From positions 992,001-1,056,000 of the forward strand of contig NZ_JACWMS010000002.1 in assembly GCF_014673215.1 (NCBI RefSeq): DNA of 64,000 nt. Direction: 5' to 3'. A program made the translations under genes and the position numbers. Origin of the DNA: Gordonia hankookensis (GTDB taxonomy: Bacteria; Actinomycetota; Actinomycetes; Mycobacteriales; Mycobacteriaceae). How positions within the stretch are numbered: the stretch's first letter is position 1; every line of letters begins with the position of its first letter. This document shows, piece by piece, positions 13,133-50,514 of the stretch. A model generated the notes under the pieces. The model did not search any database, had not been told where the DNA came from, and saw nothing but the letters and a program-made list of their open reading frames with translations.

Positions 13133-16100
13133 TTACTCGCCAGCGTCGCCGCGGCGGCCCACATTCTTCAGACGCGCGGTGAGGTCCGCCCCGATCCTGC
13201 CGATATAGGGCTCATCGACGATCGAGAGGTGGTCGCCGCCGATGTGGATGATCTCCAGGTCGTCGACCACCTCGCCCCACCTGCCGTCCTCGTCGATCTT
13301 CGCCCACTGCGGCTCGAGTTCGATCGCTCCGTCGTGCATCTTGTCGGCACGATAGAGGATCACCTTGCCGTCGTAGCTCGTCGGTTCGATGTTGGTGAGC
13401 GCGCGGTTGTCGAGGAACGAGGTGCGCTGGTGCTCGATGATCCCGCCGGGAATCTTGGTGCCCGACATCGACATCATCTCCATGATGATCTGGAACTGTC
13501 CCTCGTCGTCGGCCTCCACGAGGCGATCCATCGGGATCGGTACGTCCTCATCGAGGTCGTAGGTCTTGACCGCGAAATCGCGCCAGCGCTCCAGGCGGGC
13601 CCGCTTGGTGTCGGCGGTCTCGACCACCGGCTCCGACGGACGCACCACGTCGATCAGGCCGACGAAGTCGACGACCTCACCTTCGTCGCGCAACACCTGC
13701 GCACATCCGTAGGCCAGTGCGCCACCGAGCGACCACCCGATCAGTACGTACGGCCCGTGCGGCTGGATCTCACGCAGGCGCGGCATGTACTGCAGCACAC
13801 GCTCCTCGATCGAACCCTCGACGCGATCGAAACCGATCACCGGCTGGTCGTCGGGAAGTCGCTTGAGCAATGCCTCATACGCCGACGTGTTGCCACCTGC
13901 CGGGTGGAAGAGCAACGCGGGCACCGGATCACCGGCCGACGGGTCATACGACTTCTTGCCGTCCGGAACCAGACGCAGGTACCGGATGAAGCCGTCGGTG
14001 TGCGCGCTCGCGTCGAGGAACTCGCGAACGTAGTTCGACATCTCCTCGATGGTCTCGGAATCGAGGATGTCCTCGACGTCGATGTCGCCGCCGGTCCGCT
14101 CGTTCAATCGATCGGTCAGCTGCTGGGCCACGTCGTCGGTGAGTACCGGGAGCTTGTTGAAGACGCCGCCTGCCGACTTCTTGGTGACCACGGCGTACAC
14201 GCCGAACGTCAGGCGCTCGGCCGCATCTCGAGGCGGCACATCGGAACCCGTTGCGTCGGCGACCGCAGACTGATCCGTGAGGTTGGTCGCGGGCTTGGTG
14301 GTGCTGTCGGCGGGTCTCGATACGGCGCTCGCTTCGCTCGGGCCTACTCGACCGTCGGTGGGGTTGCTGTCGGCGGGTCTCGATACGGCGCTCGCTTCGC
14401 TCGGGCCTACTCGACCGTCGGTGGGGTTGCTGTCGGCGGGGGCCGGGTTGCTGTCAGCGGGTGTGGTGGTGCTGTCGGCGTCGATGAGTGCGTTCAGCGC
14501 TGCGGTGTCGAGATCGCCCTGTCCGGCAGAGCCTTCCGCGAGCTGCGCGACCTCGTCGCGGTGCTCGACGGCGTAGGTGACGAACTTGACCACGTCGGCC
14601 AGATTGGCCTGCCGCATCGCCTGCAGCTGCAGCTGCGGGATGTCGAACTCGAACTCGACACGATTCTTGATGCGGACCGCCATCAGCGAATCCAGCCCCA
14701 GCTCGATCAGCGGGATCTCGCGGGGCAGGTCCTCCGGGTCGTAACCCATGGACTCCCCGACGATCACCGCAAGCCGATCCTCCACGGACTCACCGGAATC
14801 CGGGTTCCACTTGTTGCCGATGTCGTCGACCACCTCGTCCTCGACCACGACCTTGTCATCGGCGAAGACCGCTGCCGGCGACGTCTGCGCAGGCTCGGAC
14901 GCGTCGACCGGGGGCACGTCTCCACCGGTCACGACCGCCTCGAACACCACGCGGAAATCCTTGTCCTGCTTGCTGTGCACGGTGACCGACGCACCACCCG
15001 GGTGCGGGCTGAGTGTGGTGGTCAACGTGCCGACGGCCGGGATGTCGCCATGGCCCAGAGCGGCACCGACAGTGGCACCTGCCAGCACCTGCGCCGCGGC
15101 CGCCCGCACGAGTTCGCGCGGATCGGTGACCGCCGAGGCGTTCACCTCCCAGGCGTGCCGCCCGTCGGGCAGTGCGACGTGCGAACCCGGAGCCTTACCC
15201 GACGATCCGCCGGACGACAGCTGCGCCTTGAGCCAGAAGTCCTTGCGCTCGAAGCGGGTCCGCGGGATCTCCCCGAACTCACCGCTGCCGAACAGCGAGC
15301 CCACGTCCACCGGGTGTCCGTGCACGTACAGCTTCATCAGCGCGTTCACCACACCGAAGCTCTCGTCCTCCTTGCGCCGCAAGGTCTCGATGAGCTCGGC
15401 GTCGTGCAGGCCCACCGAGAAGGTCACCGCGGCAACGGAGATGAGGACGGCGGGATTCGGCGAGAGTTCCAGGAACGTGCGGTGACCGTTCTCCACCGAC
15501 TTCGCGATCGCCTGGCTGAACCACACGCTGTGGCGCAGGCCCTTGGTGAAGTAGTCGATCGTGTGGACCGGGTCGTGACCAGGGCGGTAGAACGTCTCCC
15601 GATCGACCGAACTGTAGAAGCCGACGGACGGACGCAACGGTTCGATCCCGGTGAGCTCATAGGCGAGTTCGCCGAGCAGCGGGTCCATCTGCGAGGTGTG
15701 GCTCGCACCCTTGGTCTGCAGTTTGCGGCCGAGCTTGCCCTCCCCCTCGGCCCGCGCGACGATCGCGTCGACCTGGGGTTCGGGACCACCGATCACCGTG
15801 TGGGTGGGTGCCGCGTAGACGCAGATCTCGAGGTCGGGATAGTCGACGAGCACGTCGCTGATGTCCTCGGCGCTGTACTCGACGAGGGCCATCAGGCGGA
15901 TGTCGTCCCCGGTGAGCATCGACTCGCCCTCGCCCATCAGACGCGAGCGCTGGCAGATCACGCGGGTCGCGTCTTCCAGCGAGAGCCCGCCGCTGATGTA
16001 CGCGGCCGAGGCCTCACCCATCGAATGCGGAACCAGCACACCGGGTTCCGCACCGAAGTGGCGCAGCGTGTCGGCCAGCGCCACCTGGATGGTGTAGATG

Positions 16101-18556
16101 CCGACCTGGCTGGTCTCGATGCCGTAGGTCTGCTCGTCGTCGAGGAACACCTCCGCGATCGAATAGCCCAGCTCGTTCTCGACAAAGGCATCGACCCGGT
16201 CGACGTACTTCTTGAACACCGGGTTCTCGGTGTAGAGCTGCTTGGCCATCTTGCGATGCTGCGAGCCGAATCCGGAGAGCAGCCAGACCGCCGATGCGGC
16301 GTCCGGGGAGTCCGCCGAGTAGACGAGCGGATTGTTCTTGCCCTCCGCGATCGCGCGCAATCCGGTGACCGCGTCCTCGTGCGACCGCGCCATCACCACC
16401 GCGCGCGACCGACCGTGGTTACGGTGGGCGAGCGCGCGCCCGATGTCGGCGAGCGATGTCGCCTGCCCTGCTTCGGATTCCAGCCATGCGACCAGATCCT
16501 CGGCCGCCTTGCGACGGCGTGACGGCAGGAAGCCCGAGACCACGAGCGGAACCACCGAGCCCTCGACGGCACAGGGCCCGAAGCCCTCGGCGGGGTCCTT
16601 CTCGACGACCTCGACGGCCTCGGGTTCCTTCTTGGCCTGCGCGGCGAGAATCGCACGCTCCGCTTCGGTGAGGTACTCGTCGTCGTCTTCGTCGTCGAGG
16701 TTGGCTGGTCTCGATACGGCCGCTCCTTCGTCGCTCCCTACTCGACTGGCGGAAGAAACGCTGCCTACTCGACCGGCGGAAGAAACATCGCCACCACCAT
16801 CACCGTCCACGCGACCGTCGGAAGGATCGAGGTCTGACGGCAAGGGCTCGCGGACCACGATGTGTGCGTTGGTACCGCCGAAGCCGAAACCGGAGACACC
16901 GGCGATGGCGTGACCCGAATAGCGCGGCCATTCGGTGTTCTCGGGGACGACCTTGAGTCCGTTCGATCCGAACTGGATGTACGGGTTGGGACCCGCGTAG
17001 TTCAGGGACGCCGGGATGCTGTTGTTCTGCATCGAGAGGACCACCTTGGCGAGCGCGCCTGCGCCCGCAGCGGACTCCATGTGACCGAAGTTGGTCTTCG
17101 CGGATCCGAGCAGGGCGGGCGTGCCCACCACACGACCCCGACCGACCACACGACCGAGCGCATCGGCCTCGATCGGGTCACCCAGGATGGTGCCGGTGCC
17201 GTGGGCCTCCACGTAGTCGATGCTGCGCGGATCGATGGCCGCGTCGGTGTAAGCGTCGCGCAGGACTTCCACCTGCGCCTCGGGGTTGGGGGCAAAGATG
17301 CCGTTGGAGCGGCCGTCCGAGTTGACCGCGGAACCCGCGATCACCGCGAGGACCTGGTCGCCGTCGCGACGGGCGTCGGCCAGTCGCTTCAGCACGAACA
17401 GCCCGCCACCCTCGGAGCGGACCATGCCGTCGGCGTCACTGGAGAAGGCCTTGATGTGGCCGTCCTTGGCGACCGCGCCGATGGTGTCGAAGCCGACGGT
17501 CGCCGCGGGGGTCAGGATCATGTTGACGCCGCCGGCCAGCGCGACCTCGGACTCACCCGATCGCAGGCTTCGGACCGCCTGATGCACGGCCACCAGCGAC
17601 GACGAGCACGCCGTGTCGAGGGCGACGGATGGACCGTGGAAGTCGAAGAAATAGGAGACCCGGTTGGCGATGATCGACGTCGCCGTACCGGTCAGTGCGT
17701 AGGCCGCCGTCTCGTCGGAGCCTTCGCCCAGACCCAGTGCTGCCATCAACTGGTAGTCGTTGGTGGACGTGCCGACGAAGACGCCGACCGAACCGCCCTT
17801 GAGATCGCTCGGCGGGATGTGGGCGTGTTCGAGCGCCTCCCACGTCAATTCCATCGCCAGACGCTGCTGCGGGTCGACCATCTCGACCTCACGCGGGCTC
17901 ATCTGGAAGAAGTCGGCGTCGAACGCCTTCACGTCGTCGAGGTAACCGCCACGCAGGTTCCGCTTGTCGAGCACCTCGGCCATCCGCGCGTCCGCCCTGA
18001 ACTCGGTCCAGCGGTCGTCCGGTAGGTCGGAGATGCCGTCACGGCCCTCGATCAGGGCCTCCCACGTCGACTCCGGGGTGCTGCCTGCCTTCGGGAACCG
18101 GGTGGACAGTCCGACGATCGCGATGTCGTCGTCGGCGCTGCGCTCGCGCTGCCAGAACGTGTCGGAATCCGCATCGAGGCCCTCATCCGGATCACCCTCG
18201 ATGATGCGCTTGGACAGCATCGCGATGGTGGGATGGTTGTAGGCGGCGGTCGCCGTGAGGATGACGCCGGTCTTGTCCTCGACGTCGGCGGCCAACGCCA
18301 CCGCGTCGCGCGAGGAGAGCCCGAACTCCTCCATCGGCCGGTCGTCGGAGATCTGGTCTGCCGGGATACCGGTGGCTTCCGACACCCAGCCGCGCAGCCA
18401 GTCACGCAGTTCGGCGACGGTGAGATCGCCGACGGTCTCGCCGGCGGTTCCCTCGGTGTGTCCCTCGATGTGCGAAGTGTCGTCAGCGCGGCTCGACGAC
18501 GAATCGTCGCCGGGCTCGAGATTGCCGGACTCTTCGGTATTCAGTTCAGACATCAT
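13133..18556 (-). CDS. pks13: Polyketide synthase Pks13, mycolic acid condensase
   Basis: The roughly 1807-residue enzyme joins two fatty chains in the last condensation of mycolic acid synthesis and loads the product onto trehalose. Domain order: ACP1 (phosphopantetheine Ser about S82 in GLSS), ketosynthase (active Cys about C317 in DTACSSS), acyltransferase (Ser about S845 in PHSMGE), ACP2 (Ser about S1290 in GLDSL), thioesterase (Ser about S1609 in GWSLGG). The order is that of Rv3800c, but the protein is some 75 residues longer because two interdomain linkers hold copies of a dispersed repeat (residues about 590-617 and 1377-1418). The AT motif has Pro where Gly is usual (GxSxG). Start is uncertain: ATG 18556 or 18553, or GTG 18580. 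Confidence 0.97.
14302..14427 (-). repeat. 63-bp direct repeat x2 inside pks13, each holding a dispersed palindromic element
   Basis: Two 63-bp units (14302-14364 and 14365-14427) encode two copies of a 21-residue repeat, [20 protein letters not shown] followed by R. Each unit contains a roughly 41-bp element (14313-14353, 14376-14416) with ends GGTCTCGATACG and CTACTCGACC around a GC-rich arm pair. A third, incomplete start of the unit follows at 14428. It lies in the ACP2-thioesterase linker. Confidence 0.9.
16707..16787 (-). repeat. Dispersed palindromic element in pks13 KS-AT linker, with 27-bp partial duplication
   Basis: GGTCTCGATACGG at 16707 and CTACTCGAC at 16738 are the same conserved ends as in the 14.3-kb copies. 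The right part is then repeated with a 27-bp period (CTACTCGAC again at 16765). On the coding strand it yields [14 protein letters not shown], homologous to [14 protein letters not shown] from the other linker. Confidence 0.85.
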
Positions 18557-18628
18557 TTCCAGACTACTGATCGAGGGCACCCGCAGAGGTGACCACGGGT
18601 GATTCGGGTACCGGGGACCTCGACGGCG

Positions 18629-50179: not shown

Positions 50180-50220
50180 GGTCTCGATACGCCACTCGCA
50201 AGCTCGTGGCTACTCGACCA
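50180..50220. repeat. Dispersed palindromic element, intergenic copy
   Basis: It begins GGTCTCGATACG and ends CTACTCGACCA, the same ends as the three copies inside pks13. The centre (CCACTCGCAAGCTCGTGG) differs but keeps CCAC/GTGG pairing. It begins 8 bp after the SGNH stop and runs into the tandem array. Confidence 0.85.
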
Positions 50221-50514
50221 ACAGGAACGGCCCGCACACTCGCGGCCACCCGACCAACAGGAACGGCCCGCACGCTCGTGGCTACTCGACCAACGGGAAC
50301 GGCCCGCACACTCGCGGCCACCCGACCAACAGGAACGGCCCGCACACTCGCGGCCACCCGACCAACAGGAACGGCCCGCACACTCGCGGCCACCCGACCA
50401 ACAGGAACGGCCCACACACTCGCGGCCACCCGACCAACAGGAACGGCCCACACACTCGCGACCACCCGACCAACAGGAACGGCCCACACACTCGTGGCCA
50501 CCCGACCAGCGGTA
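50215..50514. repeat. 36-bp tandem repeat array (8 full units plus a partial)
   Basis: Units start at 50215, 50251, 50287, 50323, 50359, 50395, 50431 and 50467, each beginning CGACCAACAGGAACGGCCC and ending with a CTCG[CT]GGC[CT]AC-type stretch. A few positions vary (ACAGG/ACGGG, CCGCAC/CCACAC, CGCGG/CGTGG). The ninth copy breaks off after CGACCA. There are no non-repeated spacers. Confidence 0.95.

Follow-up and report, generated by a model that had tools for sequence, protein, structure and literature searches.

The window analyzed here comprises 64,000 nucleotides of Gordonia hankookensis (RefSeq assembly GCF_014673215.1, contig NZ_JACWMS010000002.1, positions 992,001 to 1,056,000 of the forward strand), and contains four copies of a short, imperfect palindrome of about 40 bp, three of which lie in frame within linkers of the polyketide synthase gene pks13. 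We interpret this element as a member of a superfamily of short imperfect palindromes that are found mainly downstream of genes and that enter coding sequences where they do no harm, with the linkers of Pks13 as places in which such elements have been repeatedly gained, lost and exchanged. We give this reading a probability of roughly three in four. An earlier note, based on the letters of the window alone, had proposed an intergenic repeat family that can colonize protein linkers, and this interpretation is largely supported by the genome comparisons described below.

A palindromic element lies in frame in two linkers of Pks13

Pks13 is the condensing enzyme for mycolic acids, and mycobacteria depend on it for viability. 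In the window, pks13 (13133-18580, minus strand) encodes a protein of 1815 amino acids with the architecture ACP-KS-AT-ACP-TE, assigned from its open reading frame and from Pfam matches to KS, AT, two phosphopantetheine-site stretches and TE. The nearest named relatives of this protein are from Gordonia, and Pks13 was matched in all 59 Gordonia genomes searched.

The exact form of the element, GGTCTCGATACG-N-CTACTCGACC, occurs three times in the window and was found 0 times across 100 shuffles of it. Two of these copies (14313-14353 and 14376-14416, 41 bp each, plus strand and antisense to pks13) lie in the linker between the second ACP and TE (ACP2-TE), within two tandem units of 63 bp (14296-14421, plus strand; 14296-14358 and 14359-14421, 97% identical), each of which consists of one element and 22 bp of linker DNA. 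The other exact copy (50180-50219, 40 bp, plus strand) is intergenic and sits between convergent genes, with its GGTC end 7 bp past the upstream gene. It is followed by eight half-element units at 36-bp steps (50220-50507, plus strand), an array that is far shorter in the sister genome G049. A further copy in the KS-AT linker (16707-16747, 41 bp, plus strand) has the 3' end CTACTCGACT, with T as the final base where exact copies have C, and runs into a tandem repeat of a half-element (16732-16785, plus strand; 27-bp units 16732-16758 and 16759-16785, 93% identical).

All four copies had been recognized in the earlier note and are real, with only their ends in need of adjustment (50219 rather than 50220 for the intergenic copy, and 16747 rather than about 16748 for the copy in the KS-AT linker). 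The three pks13 copies have the same orientation and the same reading frame, as had been noticed, and all read RVG...VSRPA. Their assignment to the KS-AT linker (one copy) and the ACP2-TE linker (two copies) also holds, but since the latter two are the product of one tandem duplication, pks13 contains two independent genic sites rather than three. No Rfam family matched within the window at gathering thresholds.

Copies across the genome lie mainly downstream of genes

The genome to which the window belongs (G000; 5.22 Mb in 7 contigs) contains 60 exact copies of the element, split 27 to 33 between the two strands, while the reversed pattern, used as a control, gave 0. The copies are 39-49 bp long, and RGCGG or RGCAG is usually found next to the 3' end. 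When the first five positions of the centre were compared with the last five in the 51 distinct copies, 211 of 255 cells were paired, whereas over 2000 permutations of the 3' arms the paired cells averaged 163 and never exceeded 179. The centre therefore stays self-complementary while its sequence changes.

To place the copies relative to genes, we trained a codon-usage gene caller of our own on the window and applied it to the 132 kb of sequence surrounding them. The 63 copies placed in this way are the 60 with GGTC/GACC ends and 3 with GGTT/AACC ends, the KS-AT copy of the window being excluded by its changed base. Only 6 of them are genic, and the remaining 57 are intergenic. Called genes are present on both sides of 54 of the 57 (3 at a contig end were dropped), 34 of these copies lying between convergent, 17 between tandem and 3 between divergent genes. 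These 54 copies are clustered and hence not independent of one another; counted by copy-bearing intergenic region, there are 23 convergent, 13 tandem and 2 divergent cases, compared with 5 convergent, 15 tandem and 9 divergent among the gaps of at least 60 bp in the window.

The two ends of the element are not equivalent in this respect. Of the GGTC ends, 43 face a gene's 3' end, and 25 of these lie within 27 bp of the called stop codon; of the 42 ACC ends that face a gene's 3' end, 1 lies as close. In part, this asymmetry arises because tandem half-elements sit on the ACC side: an extra 3' half follows 20 of the 63 copies, and an extra 5' half precedes 2. The earlier note had taken both the 63-bp and the 27-bp duplications in pks13 as later local expansion. 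The 63-bp unit is a tandem duplication, and the 27-bp unit is a half-element of the kind found throughout the family; as 17 of the 20 copies with half-element repeats are intergenic, these repeats are a family trait and not local to pks13. When 60 loci from 12 Gordonia genomes were taken as a second sample (with 20 overlapping pairs among them), the 45 intergenic loci with both neighbors called comprise 24 convergent, 18 tandem and 3 divergent cases; 12 of the 60 loci lie in called genes, several of them resembling chance matches of the loose pattern used for that sample.

The genic copies of G000 fall, in frame, in five unrelated protein genes, namely pks13 and four others. They are located in the C-terminal tails of a Dyp-type peroxidase and of IspD, at the C-terminus of a TetR regulator, and in an AMP-binding enzyme, where the copy lies within the adenylation domain, directly ahead of the LIFTSGTTG motif. 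Five of the six genic copies among the 63 placed are antisense and the TetR copy is in the sense orientation. In-frame half-repeats (e.g., ARVATPSA, GRVVDKHSTPA) accompany the copies in the Dyp-type peroxidase, in IspD and in the KS-AT linker. The AMP-binding enzyme (L015:1501-1539) has a long insert in its adenylation domain, which holds the copy and apparent half-repeats.

Pks13 linkers are recurrent sites across Gordonia

We then scanned Pks13 in 58 genomes, consisting of the window and the fetched regions of 58 others, with G044 left out as its KS-side open reading frame was not recovered. The scan was strict and counted innermost elements only, and it thereby misses decayed copies as well as variants in one end base, such as the KS-AT copy of the window. 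It identified 35 elements with 21 distinct sequences in 29,892 bp of linker (17 in KS-AT, 4 in AT-ACP2 and 14 in ACP2-TE), whereas codon-shuffled linkers (300 rounds) contained a mean of 0.20 and a maximum of 2. The rest of pks13 (282,069 bp) gave 8 matches, all in one conserved coding stretch (MVE(I/M)FLDD...IET). At least one linker element is present in 21 of the 58 genomes (12 with KS-AT, 3 with AT-ACP2 and 12 with ACP2-TE elements), and the other 37 have no strict element.

The linker elements vary by clade in their ends, core, frame and sometimes orientation, with 30 antisense and 5 sense, the latter in the Pks13 of G006, G018, G019, G027 and G053. The 30 antisense elements use two frames, frame 0 (13 elements) and frame 2 (17 elements). 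None of them is read in frame 1, even though this frame is open for the type found in the window and serves in the AMP-binding enzyme. Mapped on a FastTree tree built from 1513 linker-free columns, with decay counted as change, the presence and absence of elements requires a minimum of 10 changes in KS-AT, 10 in ACP2-TE and 3 in AT-ACP2. The peptides vary as well: LVEPVET or LVELVET is found in the Pks13 of G. jacobaea, G. sputi, G. otitidis, G. lacunae and G. amicalis, RGAQATSLET in that of G. amarae and VERSRD in those of G. zhenghanii and G. spumicola, while G. araii has a sense copy. The ACP2-TE element of G. amarae, on the opposite strand, is identical to dispersed copies in G004. The outcome that the earlier note had named as refuting its proposal, with linker peptides conserved in all relatives and the DNA element found nowhere else, was therefore looked for and not seen: the linker peptides are not conserved among relatives (G049 is without either of them, and other Gordonia have different elements, elements in other frames or none), and the DNA element is not confined to pks13.

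Pks13 linkers are fast-evolving repeat regions in general. The KS-AT and ACP2-TE linkers (L053-L110; G049, G041) also contain expanding peptide repeats (ADSN, AESN, GDVESxSQGS) that are unrelated to the hairpin. In addition, Pks13 reads in more than one frame in L230 (G041), L232 (G039), L233 (G002) and L084, with breaks in or near ACP2-TE and, for G041, also in AT; these breaks may be sequencing errors or real splits.

Comparison with a sister genome

The Pks13 of the sister genome G049 is identical to that of the window at 1688 of 1772 aligned positions (95.3%) and is 25 amino acids shorter (1790 vs 1815). G049 contains 50 dispersed matches of the window's type, yet has no element in either the KS-AT or the ACP2-TE linker. 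As the outgroup G041 likewise has no element in the readable part of its ACP2-TE linker, the element at this site would most simply be a gain in the lineage of the window. The KS-AT linker of G041 has an apparently decayed copy, so that the KS-AT element of the window may be an older one that was lost in G049.

Across 400 kb of syntenic sequence, 11 sites with an element in G000 could be compared with G049, 8 of them intergenic and 3 coding. The element is missing from G049 at one intergenic site (C2:911920, poorly aligned) and at all three coding sites, i.e., both Pks13 linkers and the tail of the Dyp-type peroxidase. At the intergenic sites C2:733654 and C2:748374, both sisters have an element, with different cores, which indicates that copies are replaced through gene conversion or inserted anew independently; an old copy overwritten by conversion can look like a new insertion. 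At another intergenic site (C2:808731-808832), a local duplication of the element together with its spacer distinguishes G000 from its sister.

The element belongs to a Gordonia-wide superfamily of hairpins

The element of the window is one type of a Gordonia-wide family, which has species-specific subfamilies and the ends GGTYTCGA and CTCRACC. Copies of the window's type (CGATACG-N-CTACTCRACC) are present in 27 of the 59 Gordonia genomes (range over all genomes, 0 to 107), and in 3 of the 74 Pks13 loci that come from named species or isolates. Looser patterns brought out larger expansions: 419 (G058), 275 (G031) and 195 (G018) matches of GGTCTCGA-N-CTCGACC, and 584 (G007) and 265 (G004) matches of GGTTTCGA-N-CTCAACC, with 0-4 matches per genome for the reversed-pattern controls. 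Where the counts of the loose patterns are low, the listed matches mostly resemble unrelated sequence, and a match in 59 of 59 genomes is therefore uninformative by itself.

In G004, 23 close inverted pairs (25-28 bp between the partners, exactly 27 bp in 20 of them) were found among 100 listed of the 265 places. The GGTT ends of these doublets face each other, and the genome contains no match to PF01797, the Y1 transposase family that includes the REP-associated tyrosine transposases (RAYTs) of repetitive extragenic palindromes (REPs). The fixed spacing suggests that the inverted doublet is a spreading unit similar to REPINs.

When 396 genomes were sampled across the phylum, 5 proved to carry the window's type (TCGATACG-N-CTACTCRACC), i.e., G000, one of the two other Gordonia sampled, and three genomes from two other families of the class (215, 26 and 18 copies), whereas none of the 12 genomes of other genera in the same family contained it. 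Some of the 215 same-end copies of G272, an actinomycete from another family, are arranged in tandem at 168-172-bp steps (C1:166765-167489). The exact-end pattern was also seen in 21 stretches of viral contigs (L127-L147), which may be phage genes or host DNA.

Proposed mechanism and alternative explanations

The dispersed copies, the covarying arms, the position relative to called genes, the enrichment in linkers, the differences between species, the open frames and the lack of PF01797 matches are all direct observations. Starting from these, we propose that a superfamily of palindromes (about 19-49 bp, with a self-pairing, variable core) has diversified into species-specific subfamilies in Gordonia. 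The element would be a REP-like hairpin replicator that persists chiefly downstream of genes, and copies inside genes would survive at harmless spots, such as linkers, C-terminal tails and probably loops, as long as the element and its half-repeats keep the frame. Copies presumably move as single-stranded hairpins with the help of some enzyme that is not a Y1 transposase of the RAYT type, while replication slippage at the hairpin may generate the polar arrays of tandem half-repeats, and gene conversion may overwrite old copies and homogenize subfamilies. The linkers, which are probably disordered as judged from their composition, would be hot spots through the purging of insertions elsewhere and not through targeting.

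Several observations weigh against this proposal, most of all with regard to mobility. REP repeats are thought to depend on a RAYT transposase, and PF01797, the only enzyme family searched for, had matches in 0 of 59 Gordonia genomes and 0 of the 3 distant genomes with the same ends; as a control, the same search gave matches in 5 of 14 genomes, including E. coli. A REP spread by a RAYT was rejected on this basis. With the usual mover of REPs missing, we infer the mobility of the element from its distribution alone. In the sister comparison, moreover, 7 of the 8 intergenic sites also hold an element in G049, 5 of them with the same or a near-same core, so that movement must be rare, and the empty sites are too blurred or diverged for target site duplications to be read. 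The KS-AT linker of G041 holds an apparent decayed copy (AGRVANEESASVGVSTP). The 35 linker elements are not independent, as clades share types; some of the changes counted on the tree represent decay, because a decayed copy counts as missing in the strict scan; and the ACP2-TE linker is unread, masked or cut short in G041, G039 and G002. Finally, the nearness to stop codons is weaker in the second sample, with distances of no more than 27 bp for 13 of the 31 GGT and 5 of the 35 ACC ends.

The different cores at C2:733654 and C2:748374 could also reflect concerted evolution, in which elements entered the Pks13 linkers once or a few times early in the history of Gordonia and were then rewritten to the current subfamily of each species by ectopic gene conversion with dispersed copies as donors, the changes on the tree being mostly losses. 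The KS-AT elements of G000, G024 and G054 and the decayed copy of G041 are indeed alike in reading frame, and sequence types track clades. However, such a history does not sit well with linker elements in both orientations and with frames and lengths that vary by clade, nor with the ACP2-TE element of G000 being missing in both G049 and the readable G041 linker, and the element of the Dyp-peroxidase tail being missing in G049; we therefore regard it as somewhat unlikely. By analogy with REPs, a host function of the intergenic copies in termination or mRNA stability is possible, and these copies might be useful 3' elements (terminators or stabilizers of mRNA 3' ends) of which the genic copies are by-products. 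The GGTC ends directly after stop codons in G000, the avoidance of divergent gene pairs and the maintained arm pairing all fit such a role, as does the antisense orientation of five of the six genic copies, which is expected if a sense hairpin disturbs transcription. The sixth copy, in the TetR regulator, is sense nevertheless, as are the elements inside Pks13 in the five genomes named above; stop-codon placement weakens in the second sample; and RNA folds of six sequences (z-scores of 0.79, -2.34, -2.16, -0.24, -1.05 and -0.14) revealed no uniform stable structure. On balance, we see this explanation as a tentative one with less than an even chance of being correct.

Two further explanations carry far less weight. 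The uneven use of frames by the linker elements would be understandable if the peptide itself were selected as a functional linker motif of Pks13, with its likeness to intergenic DNA being secondary, but the peptides vary between species, the strict scan found nothing in the linkers of 37 of the 58 genomes, and 60 exact copies of the DNA are dispersed in G000, which makes selection on the peptide very improbable. A conserved peptide motif was rejected, as G049 and other Gordonia are without conserved linker peptides. Chance similarity might be suspected because the linkers are GC-rich, repetitive and low in complexity; it was rejected on the window shuffles (0 of 100), the reversed genome pattern (0) and the codon-shuffled linkers (0.20 vs 35), and we consider its probability negligible.

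Relation to known palindromic repeats

By anatomy, the nearest known kind of element is the REP or REPIN rather than the Rickettsia palindromic element (RPE), with which the earlier note had compared it. REPs of the GTAG and CGTC superfamilies are described by Di Nocera et al. 2013 (PMC3733652) as small, high-copy palindromes that form species-specific families mainly downstream of genes, are placed between convergent or unidirectional open reading frames, and occur as conserved-spacer dimers and tandem clusters. The same paper already reports intragenic REPs, possibly in flexible linkers or loops, and different REPs near the same recB site in two Xanthomonas species, and it mentions proposed roles in transcription termination or mRNA stability. 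The Gordonia element resembles REPs in being a high-copy palindrome with a covarying stem that lies downstream of genes and is scarce between divergent ones, and differs from them in its ends (GGTYTCGA ... CTCRACC) and in the lack of PF01797 matches in every Gordonia tested. As for the unpaired GTAG motif at one end of REPs, the window's type has GGTCGA-GTAG ahead of its hairpin, whereas other Gordonia subfamilies have GAGGTG, GAGCCG or GAGTGC at that place.

REPINs are inverted doublets, with spacings of 71 and 110 bp reported by Bertels and Rainey 2011 (PMC3116915). The fixed-spacer inverted doublets of G004 (27 bp) are similar in kind; however, their spacing is unlike 71 or 110 bp, doublets are not the rule in G000, where half-repeats often follow the copies, and no RAYT was found. 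With RPEs, described in PMC10969869 as being about 150 bp long and nearly half located within open reading frames, the Gordonia element shares the logic that the earlier note had seen, i.e., a palindromic repeat that lies in frame in unrelated genes (five in G000) and adds peptide segments to their products. Compared by description rather than by sequence, RPEs are much longer than the Gordonia unit of about 40 bp (39-49), of which just 6 of 63 copies are genic. The element is also too short for the terminal inverted repeats of 15-30 bp that, with a target site duplication, define miniature inverted-repeat transposable elements (MITEs), and the alignments of its empty sites are too diverged for such a duplication to show. 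PMC3733652 contains none of the words Gordonia, Actinobacteria, Mycobacteri- and Rhodococcus in its main text, and PMC10969869 does not have Gordonia in its own. Among the open-access papers listed by our searches, which also covered REPs, RPEs and palindromic repeats of Gordonia and other Actinobacteria, none dealt with this family. While the kind of element is thus already known, its occurrence in this lineage, the lack of a RAYT match and its return to three linkers within a single enzyme are new.

Implications

Up to hundreds of copies per genome, species-specific types and fixed-spacer doublets without a PF01797 match in 59 genomes raise the question of what moves these elements. That Gordonia and some distant actinobacteria would share a REP-like superfamily with a dedicated enzyme unrelated to RAYTs, whose recurrent in-frame entry into the Pks13 linkers would be a steady source of disordered protein in an indispensable enzyme, is an extension that we consider quite doubtful at present. 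A practical caution applies to the annotation of actinobacterial proteins, as linker peptides such as VSRPA, LVEPVET and VERSRD can be the products of DNA repeats rather than motifs. Pks13 itself offers a natural experiment, with 58 genomes in which three linkers gain, lose and exchange elements, from which the tolerance for inserted peptides and the rules of frame may be read. In this case, a repeat that looks selfish goes on altering a protein whose reading frame stays intact.

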